A stretch of 64,000 nucleotides of DNA from Labia minor (lineage: Eukaryota > Arthropoda > Insecta > Dermaptera > Spongiphoridae): assembly GCA_963082975.1 (NCBI GenBank), contig OY720344.1, positions 90,458,107-90,522,106 of the forward strand, given 5' to 3'. Made by a program: the position numbers and the translations under genes. The notes below the pieces were generated by a model, which had not been told where the DNA came from, did not search any database, and was given only the letters and a program-made list of their open reading frames with translations. This document shows, in pieces, positions 3,101 through 61,689 of the stretch (position 1 is its first letter; each line of letters starts with the position of its first letter).

Positions 3101-6100
3101 TTTCGGTTTTCAGGAACAGAAAATTGAACCAGATTATGGGAATATAACAGGAAACCCAGGTCCTATAAATACTAGTAGTAGTGGAGGCGGCGGATTAGTG
3201 GGAGGTGGAGGCAACAGGGGTGGTGGTGATAATAGCGGCGGCGGCGGAGGCGGAGGAGAAAGAGGTGGTGGTGGTTGTGGCGGCGGCGGCGGCGGCAGTG
3301 GTGGATCAAATAATGGAACTGAGGATATAAACCCTATTTCACGACTGATACAAATTCAACAAGCAAAGAAAGAGAAAGAACCAATTTATACTTTAGTCGA
3401 AGAAAGAGGCGTTCCAAGGAGACGAGAGTTTGTAATGGAGGTAATTTTTATATTTAAAACTAATTCACTACTCTAATAATTTATTAAAATTACAAATCTA
3501 CAAAAAAACTTAATTAATTTAATAAAAGTATATTTTTCTTAGTCATAATAAAATTTAAATTGAATTTTTTCTAATTACGTTCTAAATTTAAATAGGAAAA
3601 CTTAAAAAATCTTAGAATTTCTTCTAGTTGATACATTGAATTAAATTTATGTTTAATTTTTCTATTATATTTTAGGTTAAAGTTGGTCAGCATGCATGTA
3701 CTGGATGTGGTCCAAATAAAAAACTTGCAAAACGTGCTGCCGCCGAAGCTCTCTTAGCTCATTTAGGTTACTCTCGACCTACACCATCCAATCCAACATG
3801 TCCTCCACTCCCAGGAAAATCTGCTATTAAAGTACCATCTGATCATTCTTCAATGAATGTAGTAGAAAAGGCTCGAAAGGTTATGTTTCTCGATGAAACA
3901 ACAGATAAAGGAATGGGTATACCAGGCAGTGGAGGTGATATAAATTCTTCAGTAGCAGTAGCATCGGTTACTCCAGCAGGAGGTCCAAGTGGAAGACAAC
4001 TTGTTCCTGGCTTGTTGCTCATGGCTGATACTGCACAGGTATTATTCCTTTTCAAATTATTCCTAATTTTTTGATCAATTAACCCTCAAGCAGGAAACCC
4101 AAGTACGTACTCGGGCCACAAAATCTATCATAACGGTGGGAGCCCGAGTCCGTACTTGTCGACTTCCAGCGTTTATATAAATTTCAATTCCTCTGTCATC
4201 TCTTGATCAATTTTGAAAATTTTTGTACCTACTAAAACTACAATATTTACACTTTCTCTTTTTTTCCACTCACTTATTGTTTTTTTGTTCGAATACATTT
4301 TCTTTAAAAGTAGAAAAACTTTTTTTTCGAGAGTTTAACTAATTACCTGCTTGAGGGGTTAATAGAATTATTTTTTGAATACATTATTCATTTATCCTGT
4401 TGATGTTGATAGGTCTCTGGATACGCGGCCACGCCCCCTAAGTCATCGGGCGTCAATCTGCAGACAACTGCAACAATTGCCAAGGAGCTGCTCAAGGCAG
4501 GTAACTCCCCGACAGCGGAAGCACTAGCCAAAGGATCTCCAGGCAGCGGTCCTGGAACTGGAATTCCCGTCGTTAGTTCCTTGGCAGCTTTGGGACTTGC
4601 TTCCCCGGCGGCAGCTGCAGCGGCGGCAGCGGCAGCCGCGCCAGCGACTCCTGCCACAACTCCTATCATTAAGCCCAAGGAACAGCTCCTTTACTTGGCG
4701 CAGTTACTTGGTTTCCAGGTGCAATTCTCCGACTTTCCAAAAGTAAGTATTTTAATTAATAAATCGTTTGCCTTTTATAGATATTAATTTTAATTCTTTT
4801 TTGACTGATCAAACAGCTTCAAATGAATTATTGATCATTCAACCAATGGATGTTATCTTATAGAATTTTGTTTCGATCCTAAATTTATTTAAAAAAAACA
4901 TTAGTTATATTTTTTTAATGTATAATATTAACTAAAGATTTGATTTGTACTTTTTTGTTGAATAGGGAAATCATAGCGAGTATTTATCGCTAGTATCATT
5001 ATCAACGGATCCGCCACATGTTTGTCATGGAGCGGGAAGTACAACAGAAGCCTCTCATGATCAGGCAGCATTAACAGCCCTTCGTGCTCTGGCTGAGATC
5101 GGTTTAGACGCGGTGTCACCTCCAGGGGGCTCCATACCTCAAACCAACGGCCAACAGGAGACCGGAGTTGACCCGTGAGTTGATTGCTTCACCCTACAGC
5201 TCAGGCTCCCTCCCCCGCACCGTCCTTTCCAATTTATAGATCAACCACTTAGAATCGAACTGTTAAACTGTTTGTTATTCTTACTAACTATTCCTATTTT
5301 TTGTGATATTAGTACATAAAAAATAAACCAATATTTATACCCGTGAAGGGAAATTAACAATCAATGAATGTATAATTTTGTAATTTTTTTATGTTGTTAG
5401 ATAAGAATTTTAAATAAAGAGATTTTTAAACTTAAAAAAATAAAAAAAAATAAAAAATATAAGTTATTAAAATGAAATAAATTAACAAAATCAAGGGTAA
5501 CTTTTAAAAGAATAAAATCATAAATTTATATTAAGAAAAATAAATATTATTATAAAAGATGGTCAATTTATATATTTTAAGCCATATATTCGTTATAATA
5601 CTTTAAGTATATTTTAAGTTGTTAATAATGTAATATTAGAGAAGGAAATAAGGATCTTAATATGAGAGGGTTTGGATTCAGCGAACCATCTTTTTTAATA
5701 AATATCTACTTTCTTTTTGTTTAATTTCCTTTTTAATTTTTTTAAAAGCCAATTTATCTGATTGTTAATTTATTTCTATATTATTTATGCAATGAAAACT
5801 AATTAGACTTAAGAATATATTGAGCCGTGCAAATTGGGGCTGTAAAAATTTGAATAAAAAATATAACATTATATGTCGAGAATAAATTTGTTAGTTTATT
5901 ATTTACTGGCGAATTTTTTTTAGAAAAAAAATTATTTTTCTATAAATAATATTATATATCATATTTTTATTTTATCATAAATAAATGTTATTAATGATAA
6001 AAGAAAGTAAGAACATATAATATTATGCTCGGTTATAAATTGTAAATAATTTAGAATTTAGGTATTAAGGATGGAATTTTCATTTTATAAATTTTCCTTA

Positions 6101-10159: not shown

Positions 10160-11404
10160 AAATAATGACTGAAATCAATAAATCAACAAGCAAATGTATT
10201 CGTTTGTTTTCATTTTATTCCTTTTCTCCAATTAAAAAATGACACATTTTTTTCTAAAATTTATCACTAAAAATAATTTCAAAAAATGATGACACTTAAA
10301 TATATTATAAGTATTCTCTATTAAAAAAACAAAAACAAATATATTTAAATAAATTTATATAGCCATGGAAATAAGGATGGGATTACCTCATAGGAAGTTT
10401 TACAGAAATTTAATTTAAATAATTTTAAAATTAGATTATTTTTATTTATTTGGTTGTATACATTTAATAATTTGAATAATTTAAAATTTTAAAAAAAAAT
10501 TTGCTTATCTAAAATGTAGTCTTGTGTTAAAATATATGAATGGATAAAAGTATGCTCATATCAATCTGAACTTTTCTCACTTTTACTAATTATCACATTA
10601 TCAATTTGCTATTTTAACATCAATTTCACTTTAAATATGAAATAATAAATAAATATATTTATATAAGTGAGATCTTAAATAAAACAGAATATCTATAATA
10701 AAGCTAAAATATATTTATTTTGAAAAAATATATACATATTATAATTCTATCTATGACTAATATACTTTAAGAAGGATATTTTTAAAAAATACAGCTTTTC
10801 ACATTATAATTATCAACTAATCTATTATGAATTCACAAAGGTAATTTTTTTTTAATTATGTATTTTTCTGAAAATAATATACTTCCTGCAAATGCCCACG
10901 AGCTGATCTCGCCCACTCATTGATCTTGAGATTCATCATTGAAATCGTATTAATAATTTCAAAGTGAAATGGAAGGTAAATATTTCCTGAGTGGAAGATG
11001 TGTATGTGTGTGTGTATCATTGATGTGCTTTTTTTTAATTCCGTAGACAGGTATGTGGATTGCACCAAATTATTAATAATTAATTGTAATATTTACTTCT
11101 TTAATAGATATTCTTTTAAAATAATTCCTTATTTCAACTAAATTATATAATAAATATGTTCTATTATTATATTAATTAGAATGATAAATTTTAGTATAAA
11201 TTAAATAGTTTAAATATTCGATTATTAAAATTTAAAATAAAGTAATGCAAGACTAAAAATTAAACCTTTGGAGAACCAATTACTTTATTTTAATGATTAT
11301 AAAAAAATTTGATTATAGACTTTTTGCATTACTCTTTAGCTTTAATTCTAGAAATAAATCACAAAGCAAATATGGTATCTCAAAACGGTTTTCTTATTAT
11401 ATAC
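10160..11404. other. AT-rich sequence without recognised features
   Basis: Very AT-rich, with a short (TG)n run near 11000-11015. No splice-consistent frames or transposon ends seen. Confidence 0.5.
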
Positions 11405-14064: not shown

Positions 14065-14975
14065 CACCCTCCATTCCAAAAGAAACCGAACTTTTTAAAA
14101 AAACAAAAAACCAATGTACATTTTGGAACAAATCATTTTTGTTAATCAATGTATTCCCCTTCTGCATCGATACACAAATTTGCACGCTCCAACAAGTTGT
14201 CAAACGACTTCTCCATGTCCTTTATTGGAATGGTCTTTAAGACGTCGGTCGTCGCCTTCTCAATGGCTTGATGCGTGCCACTTTCCTTTCATCGCCAAAT
14301 GCAGTTTAGGAAACAGATAGAAGTCGCACGGAGCCAGATCTGGTGAATAGGGCGAATGATACAAAGGAATAACGTGATTTTTGACCAAAAATTCAGTTAC
14401 AAGTCGCGAACGATGTGATGGTGCATTATCGTGCAAAAGAGTCTAACTGCCGATTTCTCGATATTCTGGCCGTATACGACGAATTCTTGGCAGCAAACGC
14501 TTCATGACGCCCAAGTACAACTCTCCAGTGACTGTCTGGCCGGGTGGAACAAATTCTTTGTGGATAATTCCTTTTGAATCGTAAAAATCCGGTTCTGTGG
14601 ACGGCCTGATCTTTCGTCATCATCCAGCGTCTCTCTAGCCGATTTGAATCCTTCGAACCACTCGTAAACTTGCGTACGGGATAGACAATCATCACCATAG
14701 GCATTTTGTAGCATTTGGTGCGTTTCGGTAAAAGTTTTACCAAGTTTAACACAAAAATCAATTGTAGCTCTTTGTTTGAAACTCATTTCCCGACCGATGT
14801 ACTAAACATACTGACATTTGAAACGCAATAACTTTTGTTGTATGCATCCAAATGTCATGAAATTTATACCAGATGTCAATGAGAAACTAAGCCATCTACG
14901 GGTCAAATATTACAACAGACGACATTAGTGGTACTATTTTTTTTAAAAGTTCGGTTTCTTTTAGAATGGAGTGTG
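14065..14975 (-). mobile_element. Internally deleted mariner (DD34D) transposon
   Basis: A 911-bp element between TA dinucleotides (14063-14064, 14976-14977). The terminal repeats run CACCCTCCATTCCAAAAGAA (left) against the complement of TTCTTTTAGAATGGAGTGTG (right) and continue through CCGAACTTTT. The transposase lies on the minus strand. Full mariners are about 1.3 kb; the missing length matches the central transposase segment that is absent here. It sits inside Helentron-like copy 1. Confidence 0.92.
14142..14786 (-). pseudogene. Mariner transposase pseudogene
   Basis: Starting at ATG 14784-14786, it reads MSFKQRATIDFCVKLGKTFT, AYGDDCLSRTQVYEWFEGFK and DDDERSGRP, the paired helix-turn-helix DNA-binding region. 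The frame then jumps to FYDSKGIIHKEFVPPGQTVT, so roughly 120 residues are missing, including the first catalytic aspartate (usual W.TGDE motif). Beyond it are LLHDNAPSH and PYSPDLAPCDFYLFPK; the two aspartates are separated by 34 residues, as in DD34D mariners. An in-frame TAG replaces Trp before LLHDNAPSH, and a frameshift lies near 14270. It ends at TAA 14142-14144. It cannot encode an active enzyme. Confidence 0.92.
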
Positions 14976-15094: not shown

Positions 15095-17195
15095 GTGTTT
15101 TTAGATGCTATTTGTTAAAAAAATTATAAAAAATAAAAGAAATAGAAAATTGGTTTGCAGATAAATTTTTAATTGTTAACCCAATGAATCAGATCACCCA
15201 AAACTCAAAATGATTCATGATAAATAACAGAAGATATCAAATTTTTCTAGAAAAGTTGTTCTTATAGTTTCAACTACTGGTACACATTCATATATTTATA
15301 TATATTTAATAATCCTTATTGTTTGTTGAAGATTTCCTTCGAGGCTTCCCTGGTTGCATAGATTTAGGAAAACTCATATTTTTAATGTCATTTAAATATT
15401 TCTTCAATAATATTTTAAATTTTCATAAAATTTAAAAAATATTTTAGATAAAAATTTATTTTGGGCAAAATTATTTTTAAAATTTTAAAATTACACTATA
15501 TATTCATACTTAATAGTTCATTTGTTAGTTTTTTTTAACTTTCAATTACTAAGAAACCTGCAATTTAAGATTCTTTATTTTCTTTATTTATATAGACAAT
15601 TTGTCTTTATTCGATGAATGTGATTATTTATCCGATTCTTGTCAAGAGTTCCAAGTTGAGTTGGCGTAAGGTATTGCCTTGGACTATTGATACAAACAAA
15701 CTCGATTGCTGGAGGCAATTTTGTATTGAACAGAAAAGAATTGGCATTCGACGAGTGAATGCTGATCGCGTTCCTGAGATCTTATAAAAGTTCTTGAAAT
15801 ATCATTTACAATAGTAAACTCCCTATCGGTATGTCTATTGATTTACTGTTTCTGTTTCGTTTAGCTATCTTTACGCCAAACCTGTGTCTTAGCCTTACTT
15901 CCCACATCATCACTCCACTCCCAGACGATCAAGTCATTCGCAACCCCCATCTCTTTAATAATATCATAAAATATATAATAAAATCGTCTTTCTAATCTTC
16001 TTATATTTAATATAAACAATCTTTTCTATAAATTATTTATTAAATAAAATTTTGAGAGTTTAAATTAATAAACAAAAATTTTCTAGATTTATTTTTTAAT
16101 ATTGTTTTAAAATCTTAACATTTTTGGGAAATTTTTTTTACAAATAATTATTTTCTAATACTTCTAGCATTTTCATCTAATCTCGACTTTCCCTTAACTT
16201 TTCAATGTCAATATTTATCTTGTCTCAATGGGTTCTTTATCTTCCTACTGCTAGTTTGCCAATTGGTTTCCTTATATATATCAATTCTTATTCCATATTT
16301 ATACCGTAAACTTGTTTTTTATAAATATTAATTTATATGTACATACCTACCAATATTCAACATTTGGAAACACTAGATAGGTATAGAATATTGAAATAAT
16401 TTCCTTGGAATTTTTTTTCTATTCTGGTGGGTAGAAATCCCAAGATTCAAAGGATGTATATTTTTTTGGTCCATCAAACGAACGAAAGGAGAGAAGCGCA
16501 TGTGCTCAAAGAATCATTTAACATTGAAAATATGGATGACTATTTAATAATTAAGTTGTAAAAAAATTTAGCAATATTTATTATGTATATTATTTATAAA
16601 TATGAAAAAAAATTATATAAATAATAATATAATATAAATAATATAAAAATAAATAAATAAATAAAATAATCTTTCCCTGAAATTGGTTTTGAAAATTCAT
16701 GTTTTTTATATTACAAAAAATTATATACATATATATTTAGTGTATAAGTATTTATAAGTAAATATATGTATATATGTTTTTTTGAAAATTTGATTGATAA
16801 ACATAGAAGATTAATTCATTTTTTCGTATATCATTTTCTTTTCAAAAGATGTTATGTATATCAGTAAAAATTCAGCTTGTTTTATGATTATACTTATGAA
16901 ATTCTTCGTTTTGCTTTTGTAATTTTATTTTAATCGAATGCGTAACGAAAACGATTGGTTTCCAAATTTATCTACCAATCTATATATAGTAGGTATGTCT
17001 ACGTACACTTAGCCATCGGCATTATTTAAATCATTCATTGGATTCCAGTGTTTTTCTTTCTTTTCTTTCCTTTATTATGATTATGATTATGATTATTTTT
17101 AAAAGTGAATGAGGAAGGAGATGGATAAATGGGTACCTGTTATCGGAATCCCGGATTGATTCTGTAACGCAGGTACCAAAGGGCATAACGTGTAC
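15095..17195. other. AT-rich sequence; one exon-like segment
   Basis: A pyrimidine-rich acceptor (TTTATTTATATAG, ending near 15594) is followed by a short open stretch reading NLSLFDECDYLSDSC and a GTAAGG donor near 15665. It is too short to call an exon. The rest, including 16570-16670 (AATAA repeats), shows nothing recognisable. Confidence 0.3.
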
Positions 17196-17199
17196 CCGA

Positions 17200-17760
17200 G
17201 ATCCCAATGGCGACACGCCCACTCGACGACCACCTGTCCTGTCCTTCTCCCGTTTCGAGAAGAGAACAGGTCTTTCAAGGCCTCGCATTATCAAAATCGA
17301 TGCCTCTCCGCGAAAGAGCATATTTTTTCCTGGCGATGACTATACTAGCGCAGCAGAGCCAGTGTGAGGCTTTCCCCGCGCGGTGGCGTCCCCATCGCCA
17401 CTCCCCCACCGCCCCCCTCTCTCACTCACCCAGGCGGGTACCGTGTGTCCGCCGCAAAGCAGAAGCAGTCTGCCACGAGCGCTCAAACCTAATATCTACT
17501 AAACGATCTTATCATTCTCTCATTGATTGTCTCGGATTGGATTGCCGAGGTGTGTGCGTGTGATTTCAAGACATTTGTGCTGATGAAGTGGTGGTGGTGG
17601 TCTTGAAGTGGGTGCATGCATGTGGAGGGTTGTTGTCGTCGTCGCCCTCGTCGACGGGGTACTCCCCCAATTGTCATCCCAGCAGCATGCCGAGGAAAAG
17701 ATCCTACAGTGGTAGTCGTGCCGGCAAAAGTAAGCGCACTTTGACATCTCCTTTTGTTAT
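17200..17760 (+). promoter_or_regulatory. GC-rich island, probable promoter and first exon of a + strand gene
   Basis: About 550 nt of GC-rich, CpG-containing sequence stands out from AT-rich flanks. CT-rich initiator-like tracts (17398-17440), several overlapping open frames and, at its right edge, a GTAAGC donor suggest a transcription start with a 5' leader. Overlapping open frames occur on both strands (17207-17563 plus, 17489-17782 minus); these are more likely a by-product of composition than separate genes. Confidence 0.45.
17687..17729 (+). CDS. Candidate first coding exon, gene unknown
   Basis: ATG 17687, in a favourable context (CAGCATGCCG), opens MPRKRSYSGSRAGK and reaches a good donor (AAAA|GTAAGC at 17730) in phase 1. 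An upstream in-frame ATG at 17588 would add a Val/Gly/Ser-rich 33 residues. The next exon is not visible: the splice-site pair at 57828 would put a stop in this frame two codons in. I do not recognise the protein. Confidence 0.3.
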
Positions 17761-17764
17761 TTTT

Positions 17765-18105
17765 TTTATTTAATTTAATCATCCCACAATTGGTTTATTC
17801 CCATTTCATACTCGTCACTTTTTTTTGTTTTGTTTACATAAATATAACATCTAAATAAATAAATAAATAAATAAATATTTTCTTTAAATCTTTTTTCTTT
17901 CATTACACATATTTATATACAAATATAAATACATATGTGCAATTTTTTATCACTTTAAATATTTATATTTATTTTTAAAATATTTTTTTTTTCTTTTCTT
18001 TTTATTTTAATTCTGCGCTTTATTCTAAATATTTACTTGAATTTGTTTTTAATTATTAATGAATGTGAATAAGGAACAAGAATTAAATAGAATAATTGTA
18101 AATTG
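17765..18105. other. AT-rich sequence after the candidate first exon
   Basis: T-rich and (AAAT)n sequence (about 17849-17877). Nothing else seen. Confidence 0.5.
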
Positions 18106-18686: not shown

Positions 18687-19305
18687 ATTTTTACCGACCG
18701 ACGATAGTAAGGGAGGTATTGTTTTCACACCAAATTTCACATGTGGAGATTTTTACATATCTCCACGAATCATGCATTTTCTTGACAGAAAAAAGTATTT
18801 TTAGCATGATGTCTGTCCGTCCGTCCGTATAGATGTGTACAGCCTGAACGGCTGAACGGATTTTGATGAAATTTGGTATATTTACTTAATGCATCAGTGG
18901 GATGAATTGATCAACTTTTGGTGCAAATCCGGAAACCGGAAGTGGTAGTATTAGCGATCGACGATAGGAAGGGAAGGGTTATTTTCATACCAAATTTCAC
19001 ATGAGGAGATTTTTTACATATCATCACGAATCATGCACTTTGCATTGGTTTTATACTTGATAAAAATCATCTTTATTAGTTTTTTCTTAATTAAAATTAT
19101 AGGAAGTCATCCAGCCATTCATGACGTCACAGCCTGGTCTTACATATATATTATAAATAAAATAACATTAAAAATATTTATGTTATATCCATATCTGTTT
19201 TTTATTACATTAATAGATATATTAAAATTATTTGAAATTGTTTCTGTAGCTGGAAATTAATTTATTTCAAACCGTCGGTCGGTTCGGTCCTGGCCACAGG
19301 TCAAC
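18687..19305 (-). mobile_element. Helentron-like family B, copy 1 (most complete)
   Basis: The 3' end, read on the minus strand, is CTATCGTCGGTCGGTAAAA. The 5' end is AAGTTGACCTGTGGCCAGGA followed by the subterminal repeat ACCGACCGACGG. The two subterminal sequences are inverted copies of each other. Inside lie a (GTCC)n run (18808-18824), the motif ATGAAATTTGGTATA, and hairpins such as GGAGATTTTTACATATCTCC. (GTCY)n runs, subterminal inverted repeats and non-symmetrical ends are features of DINE-1/mini-me type Helentron-associated elements. No replicase. Confidence 0.65.
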
Positions 19306-22300
19306 TTATTTTTTTAATTAAACAATCATTTTATCTATCAATTCATCCCCTCTCATATTTTCAAACATTTTAAATTCATTGGAATAAAATAGATTTTTTT
19401 AAGTCATCGGAAATAATATTCATGATTATTTATTTATAATAAGTAAAATATATTTGTAGTTTATTATATGATAATCATCATCCCCATTTCTCCAACTCAT
19501 TCATTCTCCACACTTTCTTCACGATTTTATCTGATTAGATTTTGTTAATATTTATATTTTTTTAACTGCTTTTTATTTATTTTTTCAATTATATTATTTT
19601 AATTCTATATAATTTAACATAATCCTTATTTTTAAATGTAGTATATAGTAGTATATAGATAGTATATATAAAAGTATAAATCAAAGAGTTCTGATTTCCG
19701 CCCAAAAATTTAAAAATTTGTAAAATAGACCATTTTTAAAAAACAAAACTTTTTGTTTATACAAAAAAAAATATTTTATTACTGTTTATGTATTTTTGAA
19801 AATATATAAAAAAAAATATTTCAAAAATTCGTATATTTTATTAGGTATTTTTCTCTAATAAAATTAGAAAAAACCTAAAACACCTGTAAATATTTATTGT
19901 TTTGGTCCTCCAATGTTGAATATATTTGACATTATTCTAATTTTTATAATTTCTTCTAGAAACAATAATTTCTAGCTTTTCAATTGTGATAAAATTGCAA
20001 TTTCATCAGAGAAGTAATTTTTCAAATTCCCTATTTCCATAGATTATCATGAATATTCCTCGATATATATTTATATATTATGAATAATAAGATAAATAAA
20101 TATTGGGAATGAAACCTTCATATTTGTATTACATGTCTATTAAATAGGAGATTATAATAATATGAATAACAAATTGAGTATAGATAAATCATTAAACATA
20201 ACATAAAATAAAATATTTAATTTAAATTAGGGCCATTTATTTTCGTAACATTATCACCCAACATTAAACATTACTCTAAATTGGATTGAAATATCCAAAT
20301 TTAAAATTTTCACAAGCTATTTAACGAAGTTATTTTAGAATCTTAAATCAAGGGCTGTCAAAAATAAGCTTACCCAGTCATTCATTATGGTTGAAAAGAG
20401 GATTTCAACGGAGTTTTAGGATAATTCAAGACTACTACTCTCATGTCAAAGAAAAGTTCGCATTACTTTAGTATATAAACTCCGATATTCAGAATATCTG
20501 AATGAATAAATAAACTTTGTCCATCAAGAATTATAAATCAAGAAAAAAAAAGAACAGAATAAAAAAAAGACAAAATTGAGGAAATTAACATTCCAAGAGT
20601 TCATGTAAATGTTTCATGTGTTCCACGAAAAGATTAGCGGTGCCTCATCAGTAAAACTAGTTCCAAGCGAACAATTCATTAGTCGTTTGTGAATGACATG
20701 CGACTCCTTTTCCTTCGGAACAAATAAAGAACAACCAACTTTGGTATTGTGGAATGGGAAACTCGATTTCTAGTAAAATTACTAATATAGCTACGTAATT
20801 CTTGGATAAAGGTAATAATTTAAGTGAAAGAAAAATTAAAAAAAAAATAAATAAATAAAAACAAAACAACAAACGAACAACAACAAAGAAATCTTGAAGT
20901 GGGAATTAAAAAAGAAAATTCCTTCCTAAATTGGAGAAAATCAAATAATTGTTTTCAAGAAGAATATATTCATTTGTGAATTGAATATTATATAAGATAA
21001 CTTGTTGAACACGAATATAATATCCGGATAACACGATGTATTCAATTAAAACTATAACATTTTTATATTTCCTTCTGTTCGTTTGAAATATAAAGAAGGT
21101 TACAATAAAGTAATTGAGTATTCATATAAAATCCCTAAGGATGTCCACTAAATCCCCAAATTATTAGGAATATTAGTGATTAACATTTCACAAGCCATTC
21201 CAATGTCATTAATATGTTTCATTGAATTAAAATTGATAAAGTTTGGCATTTTCTACCCTTCTCTCATAAATTGTCTAATTTAATCTGGTCTCATATTTAC
21301 AGGATGATTTATTTTCGACATTCATAAAATAAATAATATTTTATTCTCTTTTTTTATTCTCTTTTTTATTAATTAATTGAAGAAAATATAGAATATTATA
21401 TACAAATGGAAGAAACAAAACAAAAAAAATTAAATTAAATTAAATTTAAATTAATAATGATTAATGAACTTAAAACCAAATTAAGTTTAATATTTTTATA
21501 TTTACAAAAAGTTAATCTTAAGAGATAGTTAAATATTTTGTAAATAATTTAAAAAATAGGATTATTATATTTAATTTTAAGAGATATAATTAGTGTTAAC
21601 TATTGAATAGATTTTTATGTATGAAGGATTATTTTTTTTAATGATCATTATTATACTACACTTATTACGAGCTAACGAGCCTTGAAAATATTTATTTAAT
21701 TTAAAAAACTCAACGTTTTTCTGTTGTTGTATATTTGACAAGTGGATGGAGTCGTTCTTTATGCCTCATTTCACTTCTACAAAAAAAAAAAATTCAATAT
21801 AATTATTAATTTATAAAATATATGTAAATAGGTATTCATTCATATAAGAAATCCAAATTATAAGTGGCTTTCCTTTTCTCTTATACACGAAAGAATAGTT
21901 AAATGAACATTGGAGTCAAAGAATAGAATAAATAATATTCTTTGTAAAAAGAAAATTCTAGGTAATGTATTTATATGACGTTAAGCATAATCATCTTTAT
22001 GACTTGAAAGATAGCAATTCAACTTCTGAAATTTTACTATGATAAGATTAAAAAATATGTAATTTTTATTACTTCAAAATAGAGTTCTTTAAATAATAAC
22101 AAGCTATGACAAATAATTATTTCGAAGATACCTAATTACATAAATCTCTCTTTTTCTAATAAAAGTATATTCCAATCTTATCTATCCTATCTCTTCAATC
22201 TTCTCCAATTCTTATTTCTCATTTATTCTTTCTAATATATTGCAAATTATTTATTAATTATTGTTTTATTTATTATTTTTTAAATAATTTACTATTCTTA

Positions 22301-23639: not shown

Positions 23640-24240
23640 TTTTGTTTTTGTTGTTGTTGTTGATGATGTTGTTTTTGCTATCCCGTTCATTCAGCCTAAT
23701 GAATTATCTCCAATTCTATTAATTAAATAAGATTTTGGAATAGTAGTGGTGGTGGTGGAGAGGAGTAGAGTGGATGTTTTTGTGAGTGGTGTTGTTTTCT
23801 TTGGTGGCTGTTGCTGGTGGGTTCGTTCATGTCCTTTCCGAGATGAATGGCGGAACGAGGGTCTGCCTCTCCATGATCCAGGCGAAGGCAACCTCTTGAT
23901 AAAGGCGAGTCTCTCACTCTTTCTCTCGTTCTCTCCGTCTCGCAGCCAAACGACCTCCTCTTCACTCTCTCCCCGATGGTGCTGACGTCGACTTCGGAAT
24001 CCCCCCGGGCAGAGCACATGCCACTTGGCGTCCATTCATACTCGCACACCATCGCCACCGCCACCGCTCCCATTCAAATCACCCACTACTTGCAATTACT
24101 CACTGCCTGGTACTTCAATTGAGGACAATTTTGCTAGATCAGGGTTGTTGGCAGTGTTCTCTTCCGGCAACCGATTCACTTTTATGTCGGCCACCATCCA
24201 CTCACTCCGCTTCAACATAAAAACGCTTATATAATGAAAC
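23640..24240. promoter_or_regulatory. GC-rich island, possible alternative promoter
   Basis: GC-rich block with a (TTG)n run at its left edge (23648-23664), GT-rich and then CT-rich tracts (23910-23965), and several open frames on both strands. One + strand frame (23976-24122) begins with an ATG. It resembles the 17.2-kb island in composition. Confidence 0.3.
23976..24122 (+). CDS. Small open frame in GC island, 48 codons
   Basis: ATG 23976 opens MVLTSTSESPRAEHMPLGVH and stays open to TGA 24120. A potential GT donor lies at 24110 (CTG|GTACTT). The codons are GC-ending, unlike the genome's bias, which may only reflect the island. It could be an alternative first exon of the gene starting at 17.2 kb or a chance frame. 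Confidence 0.15.
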   Translation: MVLTSTSESPRAEHMPLGVHSYSHTIATATAPIQITHYLQLLTAWYFN

Positions 24241-24377
24241 CCAGCTATTAGATTCTTCAATTATATCCTGTCTTTTATTTCACTCGTATATTATTCTAGA
24301 AAGATGCCTAGGCAAGCAGATGAATGAACATCTCATCAAGAAATCCCTTCCATTATATTCATTATCCTAAATGATCT

Positions 24378-28110: not shown

Positions 28111-28119
28111 TTTTTTGTT

Positions 28120-28480
28120 TGAATTGAGTTTGGAGGTGGATCGTTGCCGTAGTTTTGATAGAATCAGATTGTTCATTGGAGAAGGAAGCTGACCATTTGG
28201 GCGGTGGTTTCCTTCTGATGAGACAGCAACACGTTCGTTTGCGAATGGGAGATCCATTTGGTTAATGGTTTTGGGACTGCCTCGGATGGTTTCCCTGGGT
28301 CATGGTCAGGGTCCGATCCGGGCTGTTGGCCGCACTCCCCGATCGATTCCCAGCCAACTTGCCCTCCCATCCATCTACTTACTTTATCTTCACACCATCT
28401 TTCATAAGGCCCTTTCTAAGTTACTCTATCCCATCCCGTCTAATCACGTAATTGGACTTGCACGTTCAAAGGAATTGTAA
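28120..28480. promoter_or_regulatory. GC-enriched island
   Basis: About 350 nt of markedly higher GC, with open frames on both strands (28265-28480 plus, 28173-28370 minus) that resemble no family I know. It could be a conserved non-coding element or an alternative first exon in the long intron. Confidence 0.25.
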
Positions 28481-30832: not shown

Positions 30833-32959
30833 TATAAATTAAGGAATTCTTGAATATCTATTTAAAAAAATATTTAATAATGTATTATAAGAAATTATGC
30901 TTAGAAAATTTTTTTTGAAAAAACTGACCCATGTTATTGAATTTGAGTAAAAACTTGTTAGAACCCTCTCTCTACTAATATTTTATTTTTTTATCTATTA
31001 TAGAAATATAAAATATATGATTATAAGTCAATGTCTCCTTTAAATTATTATTTTATTATTTTTTAATAAAATTATTAAAAATACTAAATGGTAATAATCT
31101 ATTGTTAATAATATTCTAAATTTTCTCTTCACGTTTTATATTTTTTTTTTTTAATTTTTTCTCAAAGGATTCCTGCAAGCTCTTAATAGGCTTGAGTGCT
31201 CTGGAACAAAAACTGTCCTGCACGTCTTATCAGGCAGGAGTCAGTTTTCCTCAATGGGATCCTTGTAATCCGATCCCTCTATCTGTGATTAGTTAAAGAA
31301 AGTGAAGAAAAAATTCGATTTTGGCATTTCCTTACATTTTATACTTCATAAAGGATATTGAAAATATATCTATTTTTTTAATAAAACATTGGATACAAAT
31401 AAAATATGACTGAATATTAATATATAAATATTCATACAATAAGGGCTCATTCATCTTTTGAGGATGATTTCTTAAATATTTTTATATAAGTCATATTATG
31501 TTATTTTGTTATTTATACTTATATTTAATTCTAAAATATTCGGTAAATTCATAGGTTAGTATATTAAATCTTTGGTCCCTTAAATTCCATATCAGGTAAA
31601 ATAAGTAACTTTAAAATATGTTCACAATTATTTGTTCAATTTTTATTTTCAAAACCAAATTTTAATTAATATAAAGATCTCGTTTTTTTTTAGGAAATCC
31701 CATTTATATTCTTTTATTTTATTCTTTTTATATAAACCCCCAGCCTTCTTATATTATAATAACTTGAAATAGAATTAATTTCATAATTATAATTTTACTT
31801 TTCTTTAGAATTATATTATAATAATGAAAAGAATAAATTATATGAAAACCATTTCCACATAATTAATTATAAATAATTATCTTTTATTTATTTTATCTAT
31901 TTTATTTAAGAGCTTCATTCATTACCTATACAGATTTTATTCACTATTATTGCAATTAAAAATTCTATTCATCTTTTATTCTTCAATTAAAAAATGCATT
32001 TATCTTTAAACAAATGTAATGTTTATTTATTGTAAACATACAATATATATCAATATTATCAAAGATAATGGTAATGTTAAATTCATATATTTCATATCAA
32101 ATATTATTAATCATTCAATCAATCAACTTTATTTTTTAAATATTTTAAATAAATAATGTGAATTTGGTAAAATAAACATATACACAATTTTTTTTTTTTT
32201 TTTTTTTTTAATTCTTTAATTTGTTTGTAAATCATGGTAAGAGGATGGACATATTTCAATCGTTAAATTTTCCAAGAAAAAATTTATTTTTTCATCAACA
32301 ATTTTCAAAATTAAATAAAAAAGTATATTTACTTAGATATATTTTTTCTAAATTGAAATATTAATTTTAATGTATGGAATATTAATTTATATTTTCACAT
32401 CTCTCTACTTTAATAAGATTCAATGTATAAAATCTTATGATTTAAAATAAAAGTTCTTATCTATCTATTTTATGCTTGTTATACTATTGAAATCAGCATG
32501 ATTTCATGTCGAGCTAAGACCTTGAAGATGAGCGCTCATCTGATGAAATAGTGAGCTGGCGCATATAGGGTCACGGGGATAACAAATAAAGTGAGATGAA
32601 TGCAGATAATATATTCAGTGTTAATTAAAATTCTTTTTTTCTTTTCTTAACTTAATACATAGTTTAATGTTTTTTTGTTTTGTTTTTTTTTTTATTTTTA
32701 TTTTTAAATCAAATTTGCTTAAATTCGTACGTATGATGAGAAAATGGTTCAGTGATGTTTTGACATAGTTCAATATAAACCTCTATTTAAATAACAGGCT
32801 TGATAATACTAAAAAAATTAAAAATCACCATGATTGAAAGAAAAAGGGTTCTCGAAACTGGAGTCAAACATTCCAGATTTAATTGTCCTAAACTAATTTG
32901 ATGATTATTGTCTGTATTCAAAAACCTGAAAAGTTTGAATATATATATTTTTGATTTCT
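30833..32959. other. AT-rich sequence; small GC-enriched patch
   Basis: The patch at 31165-31300 has facing CTGTCCTGC and GCAGGAGTCAG words. A T22 run lies near 32188-32209. No gene recognised. Confidence 0.4.
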
Positions 32960-55829: not shown

Positions 55830-57122
55830 ATCAAAATCAAATTATATAAATAATAATCTAACACCCTTAGGTAGTTAATGTTTTTACTTTTAAAGAATTT
55901 TCTTTCTATTTACATTTAATTAATAATTCAATTTCTATTAATATAAATCACCATTATTTTTCTTTAAATAATTATACTCCAAATATAATATAGATAGTTA
56001 AATATAAGATATATACATTTCATAGATAATATATTAAATTAAATAAAATAATATATTAGAAAGAAGCAATCGACTATAATACTCGTATAAACGCTAAATG
56101 TGGTGATAGACAATGCATGCTGTCTGCGAGGTCTTTCCTTGTTTGTTGGAAATCCGTGAGTCATACGGCAACGTTTTCACTTTTATTAAATTAATATATT
56201 TAAGATTAAAAGCAATTTTCTTATATAATAACAAATAAATTATTATTTACATCACGAATGTATTTTATTTTTTCAAAAATCATTTTTAGATTCATTAATA
56301 TAAGGATTGGAGGAATTCTCTCAGGGGACTTCAAAAAAAAAAAAAAATTTTCATATTGTTTAGAAAATTTTTATTATTATATTTTAAGAATAAAGATTAA
56401 TAATGTTCTCAATTCTGAAATCTATTAAAATATCTAATCTTTGATTAATTTTAAAATTATTATAATTAAAAAATATATTGTTTTCTTTAATAATTTTTTT
56501 TTCTAAATATACTTCAATTTAGATTTTTAATAACAGACGGAAAGCTTTAGGGGGACAAAATAAAGTGATGATTTTCAAAAAATTTTAATATTAATATTTT
56601 ATAATTTGAAATGATTCATTTGATATTAAATATTTTAAAATTATTTTAACCTTTTTGGTTTTTTATTTTATTATATTGTTACCAGTATCTTCTTATTGGT
56701 AAAATTTTTAAACAACAAAATGGTTATTTTGGAAAAATTAAAATAAATTCTTATAGATTTTGGCTGTTTATTTTTGACAGAAACAAAATCCTAATAAAAT
56801 ATAACTTTCCTATAGAATTTTGCATAAATTCTATTCTTTTCGTTTTTTTTCTTTTTTATTCTGTTTTATTTATTTATTTATTTTTTTTATTTTTAATAAA
56901 TGTCTCATAAATTTTTAAATATTAACATAACTATCTTTATTGATGCTAATGTATATTTCATATACTATAATTTCTTAGAACACTTACTATGAAATATCAT
57001 AAAATACTTTTTCTTAGAAAAATTATTTAATTTTTATTAAAACTTTAATTTATATACTTTTTTAATATTCATTTTTTTTTGTTATTCAATTTCATTTCAA
57101 TTAATATAGAAATTGATATATA
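55830..57122. other. AT-rich sequence; small patch with TGAGTCAT
   Basis: Positions 56085-56180 are less AT-rich and contain GTGAGTCATACG, an AP-1-like word. Otherwise nothing recognised. Confidence 0.35.
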
Positions 57123-57130
57123 CTATATAT

Positions 57131-57296
57131 CCACAGTGGCCAAACCGTGATGTTGCCCTTTTTGAGTTTATTATGGCTCAATTAAATAATTTAAAGTCAT
57201 GACACAAAACAAAGGTAAAATTTTTTCCGATTTGCCTCTTAAACATTTTCGATTTTTCAATATGGTTCTAATTATCACCTAGTGTGGCCGCCCTTG
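57131..57296. mobile_element. hAT MITE, family 3, with perfect 8-bp target duplication
   Basis: A 166-bp element flanked by CTATATAT (57123-57130, 57297-57304). Left end CCACAGTGGCCAAACCGTGA, right end complement CAAGGGCGGCCACACTAGG. Ends are degenerate but comparable, with shared GGCC words. Confidence 0.7.
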
Positions 57297-57525
57297 CTAT
57301 ATATTATTCTAAGTTTACTAGGAATTTTATTTAAAATATTAATTTTTATAAATATCATAGAGATAAAAACTGTGATATATATATATATATATTACATTTT
57401 TATAGGAATTGAAATAATTATATATTACAAATCTTACAGTTGAGTAATTAAGATAACAAAATTCCCTATATTCATTATATAATAGTAGTAATTATATTGA
57501 TTTAAAATCCCACCCCCTGGCTGTT

Positions 57526-57565
57526 ATGCAACCATAATAAACTCTCTTGAGTTATATGGTTGCAT
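57526..57565. repeat. Compact hairpin
   Basis: ATGCAACCATAATAAACTC pairs with GAGTTATATGGTTGCAT around a TCTT loop: 17 pairs with a two-base bulge. It stands out in unique sequence 260 nt upstream of the splice-site pair at 57828. Confidence 0.6.
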
Positions 57566-57827
57566 GAACATGAACTTCAAAAATTCTGGCATCAAAGTGC
57601 CTTATTTTATATAACATGAGTATATAAATATTTTGTAATCATATTAAATTAAATAATTAATAAATCTTATTTAATATTTCATTTAGAAATAAATATTTTT
57701 ATATTATATTTATTTATAAGTATTTATCTTGTGGGTATTATATTTACATTTTAATACAAGTTTATTTATCCTCAGCACATAAAACGAATGAATAATAATT
57801 TAATATTTGTCTTTTTTTTTGTTCTAG

Positions 57828-57863
57828 GTAAGTGACGATCCTGATGTTTTATTATTTCCACAT
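57828..57863 (+). CDS. Recursive splice site or 36-nt microexon in a long intron
   Basis: A pyrimidine tract (CTTTTTTTTTTGTTCTAG, ending at 57827) abuts GTAAGT, and a second GTAAGT donor follows 36 nt later at 57864. Two readings fit. First, a recursive-splicing ratchet point, where the upstream part of a long intron is removed and the regenerated GTAAGT is used again; such sites look like (Y)nAG|GTAAGT, often followed by a short exon-like segment with its own donor. Second, a 12-residue microexon (VSDDPDVLLFPH), open only in phase 0. The only upstream candidate exon (ends at 17729, phase 1) would meet TGA here, which favours the first reading or other unseen exons. Confidence 0.5.
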
Positions 57864-57869
57864 GTAAGT

Positions 57870-60495
57870 CAGTATTTCTCAAGTCATTTTACTAAAGTAT
57901 TATATTTGTTTGTTTGTTTAAAGAATAATACAAATAAAACTGTTATCTGAGTATCACTCTAAATTCATTTATAAGATAAAATTTCTGCAATTATTATAAC
58001 ATCAATTTTATATTAGTATTTTAGTAAAATGTATTTGAAAACCTTATTAAGTACTTAAGTATTATTATTTTTGAAAAGGAATATTTCATTTGAAATATAT
58101 ATATATATATATAAGATATATTGAAGGAGTGACGGTTAATGATAATGGCCCAACAGTCACTTTTCTCTCTCTTCCTTCTGAAAATTCATGACTTGTGAGT
58201 TGGCCATTCAAGTCAATTGGCACCTAACGGTTGAAAGGCAAGTTTGTTAGTAGGCAGCTTGGTTTCGAATCTCGTACAGTTAGGAACCGAATTGTTTATA
58301 AATTACTTTTTGCTTATGGAATCCACTTGGAACACTTACGACATCAGGCTCTGTTCTTCACTAACAACACCATTCCCAATAGATTGCATTAAATACTAGA
58401 AATTATACATTAAAGAAGAGTATATGTTACTATGCACGTGTTAGTTTCTAACAAGTGTCTTGACCTTATTATTATAATATAGAAATTAAAACACAAATTA
58501 AAATTAAATAAATCTAAAAATGCATTTTATATTGTTTATAATTATGCAATTAAATTAATTATAATATTAATTATTTTGATTTGTATTTCATTTTTTTTTC
58601 TATTTTTTTCTCTTTTTAATCACATATATAAAAAATATTTATTTTTTTAAATTATAATTCATGTGTCCATTGGCATATAATGTACATGTAAAAATCACAT
58701 AAATTTTATATCTATTAATTAATAAAATAAAATTTAATATTTTTAGAAAAAAATAATAGTTATTAAAACTACAAATAAAATAATTAAATAATTTTTCAAA
58801 ATATTAAAACAAAAATTCAAAATATCGTTTCTAATTTTATAATTTATTTAGCTGAGTTAAAATGAACTCATTTCTTGCTATTGGACATTATTCATCAATT
58901 AAGCAAATTGTAATATTATAATTATGTTTGTTGATTATAATCAAAGCTAAACTTTAATTTATTCAGTTTTTGATGAAGGGTTACATATTTTAAATAAATC
59001 TATAGGTCTTTAGAAATACCTTTGTAAATTTAGAATTTACTTAATAAGGTGAGTTTTGAAATGAAAAATGGATATATATTTTATATGCATATTTTTTTTT
59101 CTTAATTAAATTAATTAATAACAAGTGTCAATAAATATCAATATCATTGCATTCATTCAAGGTGGCTTATTAATGTGACTTTTAAAAAGATAAAAGTTAT
59201 ATATATAGTATATATAAGGATATTATAAATTTATTATTAATTTGTATATAATATAAAAAAAAAATTTTAATATATGTTTATTTAAAATGATAATTAAAGG
59301 GAAACATTAATTTTATTACGATCCAATAATTGAATAAAATTAATTTAAATTATTAGTTTTAGATGAATTTAAATGAGATTTGATTATTATTTAGAAATTC
59401 ATTTTAAAATAATTAATTTAACTGATGAATTAATGAATTGATACATTTTTTTTATATTTATTTTCAATTTAATTTTTCAATTTTTATCATATCTTGTCAC
59501 TTGATATAGGCGTCATTATTTGTCTATTGTTTTAATTATAATTCTTAGAAAATTATAAGGGTCTTTAACTTTTGAGCTTATTCCTCTGAAGAACTGTTAA
59601 AATAAAAGGCTTCCTTTAGTGAAGGTCTGGTACCGGGGCTTTTTTTAATTAGGCAACGAGAAAACTGTTAAAAGAAAGAAGCCTTGTTAATTCCTTGTGT
59701 CAACCAAACATCACCCTTTGACTAAATAAGGGTTTCTCGCTTTAATTCTAAAATATATATTTAACAACATTTAAAAATTCATCTCCAAAGAATTTAATTA
59801 CGTTGAATTGATTTCACTTGAAAGGAAATCTATTTTGAAAATTTCATCAAAATTAAATTTACATCATAGCTTTTTTTGACAGATAACGATATATATATAT
59901 ATTGATTATTATTATTGTTATGATGATGATTGACTGAGATTCGGATATAAGCTAAATTAAATCAAATTATATATCTATGAATATAAATTGATAATATTGA
60001 AAATAGTTAATAAAATAATTTATAACATAATGAATTGTGTAGGTAAACCTCAGCAATATAATAATTAAATATATATTAATTAGAATGTTAGATAAATATT
60101 AAAATCTAATTTACATATTTGAAACTTGATAAAAAAACTTTTATTAATAATAGATATTATGAAAATTAATTTTCTATCTCTACTCTAGAACAAAGTTGAG
60201 GCTATTCTTCCAAAGAACTTTTCCAATAAATTATATATTATAATAAAATAAATTATTAACAGTACGTATATTTATTTAATAATTTTTTTTCAACTAAATA
60301 TGAGTTCGAGGGATCGAACCTCACTAGGTTCAATTAATTTATAATTTAATAAAAAAACATTATTGAATAAAATATAAAAATATAAAATAAAAAAAGATAG
60401 GAATTGGTAAAGGCCCAAAACAAAAACAAAAAAACTAAAATTATTAGAAGAAACAAAACCACATGAAAAGGAGATAATACAAATAATGGATCAAT
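57870..60495. other. AT-rich intron-like sequence
   Basis: A less AT-rich patch at 58120-58350 contains a B-box-like word (GGTTTCGAATCTC, 58260-58272). Another B-box-like word on the minus strand lies at 60305-60320. Neither has a matching A box. An inverted GGCTTC/GAAGCC pair lies at 59608-59690. No genes recognised. Confidence 0.35.
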
Positions 60496-60501
60496 AACAA
60501 T

Positions 60502-61153
60502 AAGTTGACCTGTGGCCAGGTCCGAACCGATCGACGGTTTGAAATAAATTAATTTCCAGCTACAGAAACAATTTCAAATAATTTTCATATATCTATTAAT
60601 GTAATAAAAAACAGATATGGATACATAAATAATAAATATAAACATTTTTAATTTTATTTTATTTATAATATATATACAAGACCAGGCTGTGTCGTCATGA
60701 ATGGCTGGATGACGTCATATAATTTTAAATCAAGAAAAAACTAATAAATATGATTTTTCTCGAGGATAAAACCAATACAAAGTGCATGATTCGTGGTGAT
60801 ATATAAAAAAATCTCCTTTGGTGTGAAAATAACCCTTTCCTTCCTATCGTCGATCGCTAATACTACCACTTCCGGTTTCCGGAATTGCACCAAAAGTTGA
60901 TCAATTCATCCCACTGATGCATTAAGTAAATATACCAAATTTCATCAAAATCGGTTGAGCCGTTCAGGCTGTACACATCTATACGGACGGACGGACAGAC
61001 ATCATGCTAAAAATACTTTTTACCGACCGACGATAGTAAGGGAGGTATTGTTTCTGTTTAGAAAATGTATGATTCGTGGAGATATGTAAAAATCTCCAAA
61101 TGTGAAATTTGGTGTGAAAACAATACCTCCCTTACTATCGTCGGTCGGTAAAA
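60502..61153 (+). mobile_element. Helentron-like family B, copy 4 with inverted terminal duplication
   Basis: Runs from AAGTTGACCTGTGGCCAGGT to TCGTCGGTCGGTAAAAA and matches copy 1 throughout, including GACGGACGGACAGACATCAT. An extra inverted copy of the 3' end (61022-61052, ACCGACCGACGATAGTAAGG...) is inserted about 100 nt before the true 3' end, so the last 135 nt form a hairpin with 31-nt arms. Confidence 0.75.
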
Positions 61154-61689
61154 ATTTACTGATTTGTAAATATATATAAAATATTTAGAGAAATTAAAAA
61201 CGTCATAGAAATGAGATTAAAATGTCAGAATACGATTCAAATCCATTAAATGTGACTGGTAGTCAAAAATGATTTATAGCTACATTATTTTACTTTCAAA
61301 TTAATAGCAATCAATTTTTTTTAAATGAATGTTTTTATTATCATTCAATATCTTATATTCTGATTGGTCCAATTAAGGAAAAAATAATATTTGATTTCTT
61401 TCATTCTTTTTTTCTATTTTAGTAAAAAATTTATTTAATTTTTCTGAGACTACTTATTTCTTAATTAATATTATTTTAATAATTTTTTTAATTAACCTTC
61501 TTTTTTTTATATTAATTTTAATATGGAAATTATAATTTTAAAAAATAAACAAATCCGATAAGAATTATTCTGGGTCCAAGTTTTGAGGTTTTTATTTAAA
61601 TTCTATTTTGAGAATGCATTGATTTAAAATTAGTTTGAGACCTATCTTTTATGTAGTCAATGGATTCAACGTTAAAAAATGTCTCATTT

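Follow-up and report, generated by a model that had tools for sequence, protein, structure and literature searches.

The junction at positions 57827/57828 of the window, as we term the whole 64,000-nt stretch of DNA analysed here, is best explained as a probable ratchet point whose short RS-exon would mostly be skipped, a reading to which we give about an even chance. Direct reading of the + strand yields tgtctttttttttgttctag/GTAAGTGACGATCCTGATGTTTTATTATTTCCACAT/GTAAGT (slashes mark the putative splice junctions), in which the AG ends at 57827 and a second GTAAGT begins at 57864, exactly 36 nt past the first; the fused acceptor and donor is thus TTTTTTTTTGTTCTAG/GTAAGT. These elements, their order and their spacing are directly observable in the DNA. 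The preliminary description of the locus, a pyrimidine run ending in TTCTAG that is followed immediately by GTAAGT, proves to be exact, and the second GTAAGT lies where that description had placed it. Two hallmarks of a ratchet point are present, namely strong 3' and 5' splice sites juxtaposed around AG/GT and a short RS-exon carrying its own donor, GTAAGT, 36 nt downstream.

The putative 3' splice site of the ratchet point (57800..57827, + strand) comprises a pyrimidine-rich tract and TTCTAG, together with a branch-point-like TTAAT at 57800-57804, that is, at -28 from the site (the motif being an approximation). It is preceded by a long AG exclusion zone: no AG occurs from 57775 until the terminal AG of the site itself. 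Only six of the 2391 AGs on the + strand, this one included, score as high or higher as acceptors. The putative regenerating 5' splice site, GTAAGT at 57828..57833 (+ strand), directly abuts the AG and, in its genomic context TAG/GTAAGT, shows the best predicted pairing to the 5' end of U1 among 2474 + strand GTs (-11.4 kcal/mol). The candidate RS-exon or microexon (57828..57863, + strand) spans 36 nt, a length divisible by three, and contains stops in two of its three phases, as had been claimed, with phase 0 open (VSDDPDVLLFPH). It is bounded by the RS-exon donor GTAAGT at 57864..57869 (+ strand), whose exonic context CAT carries a mismatch at -1.

A staufen gene, recognised by the Pfam families dsrm and Staufen_C (dsRNA-binding and C-terminal domains), occupies the left end, and its reading stops with the TGA at 5176-5178. 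To its right, no Pfam domain scored above cut-off in the three + frames between 20 and 64 kb or in one of three frames between 5.2 and 20 kb, the scan of the minus strand consisting of three chosen ORFs; matches to WIYLD (E 0.35) and IL22 (E 0.018) fell far below the cut-offs and were taken as chance. This result for the scanned + frames between 5.2 and 64 kb is in keeping with either intron or intergenic DNA. Three GC- and CpG-richer blocks (17095-17771, 23725-24255 and 28114-28477) stand out in the AT-rich DNA as possible promoters or first exons of a putative + strand gene, and among all acceptor-donor pairs on the + strand, the one at 17434-17549 scores highest. The first of these blocks holds the ATG at 17687 and the donor of the only upstream coding exon candidate that was picked out (17687..17729, + strand; ATG...GGCAAAA/GTAAGC, reading MPRKRSYSGSRAGK plus one base), which putatively belongs to the same transcript as the site. 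Its donor at 17729/17730 is fairly weak (6.6 bits) and lies 40,098 nt before the site. The distance of about 40 kb to the nearest candidate first exon given in the preliminary description therefore holds for this candidate. Downstream of the site, the remaining 6.1 kb of the window contain no recognised exon, and a downstream exon would lie outside the window. From this arrangement we infer a 40-kb host intron across the site, in a region that may instead be intergenic.

Under the ratchet-point reading, the putative host would be a long intron of a + strand gene located to the right of staufen. The spliceosome would first recognise 57828-57863 as an exon, by means of its strong acceptor and of the donor at 57864, and the upstream exon would then be joined to 57828. 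By analogy, the site would most likely work like a fly ratchet point. The reading presumes that the region is transcribed, that a long intron spans it, that the sites are used and that the segment is mostly skipped, all of this inferred. Of the recursive splice site originally proposed, the anatomy matches and does better than chance, the long intron, + strand transcription, conservation and use of the junction being putative. Skipping of the 36-nt segment would be needed after the visible exon candidate, since its inclusion there would read S, K, stop, which corroborates the earlier statement that the segment has a stop in the phase of that candidate. The strength of the ratchet donor depends on the upstream exon, which supplies its exonic side once the first step has taken place. 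If that exon ends in AAA, as the candidate does, the scores are 8.4 bits for the ratchet donor and 9.6 for that of the RS-exon (approximate matrices, not trained on this organism), and the predicted U1 pairing after joining is -6.4 against -6.0 kcal/mol (U1 5' end approximate), so these close scores do not by themselves assure skipping. With an upstream exon ending in AAG or CAG, the ratchet donor would reach 13.1 or 14.4 bits, respectively, against the same 9.6 bits. Two further observations weigh against this reading. A 40-kb step from the exon exceeds the 9-15 kb of typical fly segments reported in the excerpted text of Pai et al. (2018; PMC6110457), and no second strong fused site lies between the exon candidate and 57827 among the ten best + strand sites, the next best there being one of 8.9 bits at 31595. 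Moreover, a length divisible by three sits poorly with a cryptic RS-exon, published ones being generally out of frame as far as the excerpts of PMC8605326 go.

One alternative, which we regard as doubtful, is that a T-rich stretch followed by AGGTAAGT has arisen by chance in AT-rich DNA and is unused by the spliceosome. To gauge it, fused sites were scored on a 16-nt pyrimidine tract, NYAG and the six donor bases, with approximate matrices that were not trained on this organism. At 21.7 bits, the site at 57827/57828 scores highest of the 274 AGGT tetramers in the window (145 on the + strand and 129 on the - strand), the runner-up on the + strand reaching 15.6 bits and the best on the - strand 11.6. 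That runner-up, at 11050/11051, reads ttttttaattccgtagacag/GTATGT, and the mean best score in Markov sequences is 13.8-14.8 bits. None of 240 Markov runs (60 for each of orders 1-4) matched the score of the site; with 57701-57950 excluded from training, 7 sites in 1500 order-3 runs and 13 sites in 1500 order-5 runs did so, a rate of 0.005 to 0.009 per 64-kb strand. None of these 20 sites had a GTRAGT 15-150 nt downstream, which is weak evidence when taken alone because only 0.7 were expected. A count-based estimate for a strong acceptor abutting a donor gives 0.0016 (GTAAGT) to 0.0029 (GTRAGT) expected per window over both strands, assuming independence and keeping the real T tracts, with the site itself included among the 10 acceptors and in the donor counts. 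The + strand carries 10 GTAAGT, both copies at the site included, and the chance of a second one is about 1.9% within 150 nt and 0.4-0.6% within 36 nt, so that the latter requirement multiplies the count-based estimate by about 0.5%.

Other figures are more favourable to chance. The 9-mer YAGGTAAGT, present once in the 64 kb (both strands), is not significant alone, since about 0.5 are expected per window in dinucleotide shuffles and 36 of 100 shuffles carry at least one. Taken as a plain exon, 57828-57863 is the second-ranked acceptor-donor pair on the + strand, and one pair on the - strand scores higher; considered alone, the 36-nt exon does not exceed chance. In addition, all of these estimates apply to one site already picked out beforehand, and not to a choice among many windows, and sites at the 0.5-0.9% level are to be expected when a large number of windows is scanned for a variety of features. 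The combination of a fused acceptor and donor, a polypyrimidine tract and a second donor does nonetheless exceed chance.

As the next reading, which we hold to be unlikely, the segment could be an expressed RS microexon comparable to m1 and m2 of Ubx. It would then constitute a 36-nt frame-preserving cassette, adding VSDDPDVLLFPH after an upstream exon that ends in phase 0, and its first bases would double as a donor, so that the segment could be either included or removed by re-splicing. A length divisible by three, one open phase and, with certain ends of the upstream exon, an exon donor about equal to the ratchet donor all fit this notion, and there is precedent in the published RS-exon reporters, which in the excerpts of PMC8605326 include Ubx-m1, msi, ps, heph, sm and mub. 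The same excerpts, however, put the expressed RS-exons of Drosophila at fewer than 50 and its intronic ratchet points at more than 500, and the only upstream exon candidate visible would join the segment in the wrong phase, leading to a stop. The composition of the segment is likewise unhelpful: an open phase is present in 80% of local 36-mers, and its GC content of 12/36, set against a local mean of 23%, is reached or surpassed by 23% of them, so that neither property amounts to coding evidence. The 10-letter core of the peptide was absent from the literature searched and the back-translated 12-mer from viral contigs, neither search being a test against animal proteins, and no PDB sequence matched the phase-0 reading when extended to 40 aa. 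A regulated version, in which some transcripts, started at a promoter with an exon ending in phase 0, would add VSDDPDVLLFPH to the host protein, and in which transcripts from the 17.7-kb exon would have to re-splice or meet the stop, appears improbable. If true, one short segment would serve both as an intron ratchet and as an isoform switch.

Very improbable, in our judgement, is an ordinary cassette microexon or alternative terminal exon that starts with GTAAGT by accident and is not re-spliced, for although it would account for a strong acceptor and a strong donor 36 nt apart, the full GTAAGT at the start of the exon would have to be silenced. An Srrm234 (eMIC)-type neural microexon, as a sub-case of this explanation, could claim the long AG exclusion zone that is common to eMIC exons according to the excerpted text of PMC8797185, but of the fly eMIC features reported there the site has neither a TGC (UGC in the RNA) within 40 nt upstream of the acceptor nor a CTAAY (CUAAY) branch point, nor yet a TCTC or CTCT within 30 nt upstream.

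A repeat origin of the site was rejected within this window: in a self-search of 57001-59000 against the window, similar copies covered only 57155-57306, and the SINE-like block that follows the site begins at about 58123. This GC-richer block (58123-58298) contains a B-box-like GGTTTCGAATCTC and by eye, with an approximate motif, resembles a tRNA-derived SINE. Repeats are found elsewhere in the window as well. A family of about 0.3-0.6 kb is present in both orientations at 13.5k, 25.1k, 33.0k, 36.0k, 41.5k, 44.4k, 46.0k and 62.8-63.4k, with a CACACA run in some copies, and an inverted pair of repeats of about 0.65 kb (18687-19313 and 60496-61155) is 88% identical, the second member harbouring a perfect 37-nt inverted repeat (61017-61053/61118-61154). 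The minus strand carries a broken mariner/Mos1-like transposase at 14263-14801, with a match to HTH_48 in its 14505-14801 piece and, by eye, further transposase-like pieces in other frames. The predicted RNA fold at the site is no better than that of shuffled sequences (z -0.3, with 69 of 200 shuffles folding as well or better). A hairpin with a 13-bp stem and a 5-bp inner stem is located about 260 nt upstream of the site (57524-57567); its surroundings (57490-57630) fold well (z -4.3, with none of 200 shuffles as good), and it has no match among Rfam families. A link between this hairpin and the site was rejected, the evidence for it being wanting.

The closest known counterparts of the probable ratchet point are those of Drosophila. 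As described in the excerpted text of Joseph et al. (2021; PMC8605326), these consist of a tandem acceptor and donor, a short cryptic RS-exon of variable length (around 50 nt) and a downstream donor, the cryptic exon being recognised before splicing and generally skipped. The preliminary description had regarded a short segment with its own donor as a vertebrate trait, a view that this account of intronic ratchet points in Drosophila contradicts. Such sites are common in long introns, a high-confidence recursive site having been found in 63% of fly introns longer than 40 kb (PMC6110457, in excerpt). Like the intronic ratchet points of kuz, Bx, Ubx-RP, ct, nmo and others, as they appear in the excerpts of both papers, the site presents a polypyrimidine tract and an AG that runs straight into a strong donor; a further donor follows after a few tens of nt, and no coding domain was seen around 57827. 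It differs from them in being known from sequence alone, whereas theirs are backed by intermediates, saw-tooth patterns and conservation, and it departs from the cryptic RS-exons of Drosophila in that, with the visible exon candidate upstream, its two donors are similar in strength, and in its length divisible by three.

Two other systems invite comparison, both through the excerpts of PMC8605326. The segment resembles the Ubx microexons m1 and m2 (Hatton et al. 1998, cited therein) in being short, divisible by three in length and provided with a donor at its start, but it spans 36 nt instead of 51, there is no sign of Ubx here and its coding use is putative. With mammalian RS-exons (Sibley et al. 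2015; Blazquez et al. 2018, both cited therein) it would share exon definition by a segment with its own donor, followed by competition between two donors; those exons, however, belong to what is presumably another animal group and are under the control of the exon junction complex. The site adds one likely example to the several hundred known. As a clear sequence-only candidate with an RS-exon in an AT-rich genome, it would also provide a useful test of the reach of the rules laid down for fly ratchet points, that is, of a fused acceptor and donor accompanied by a short cryptic exon.
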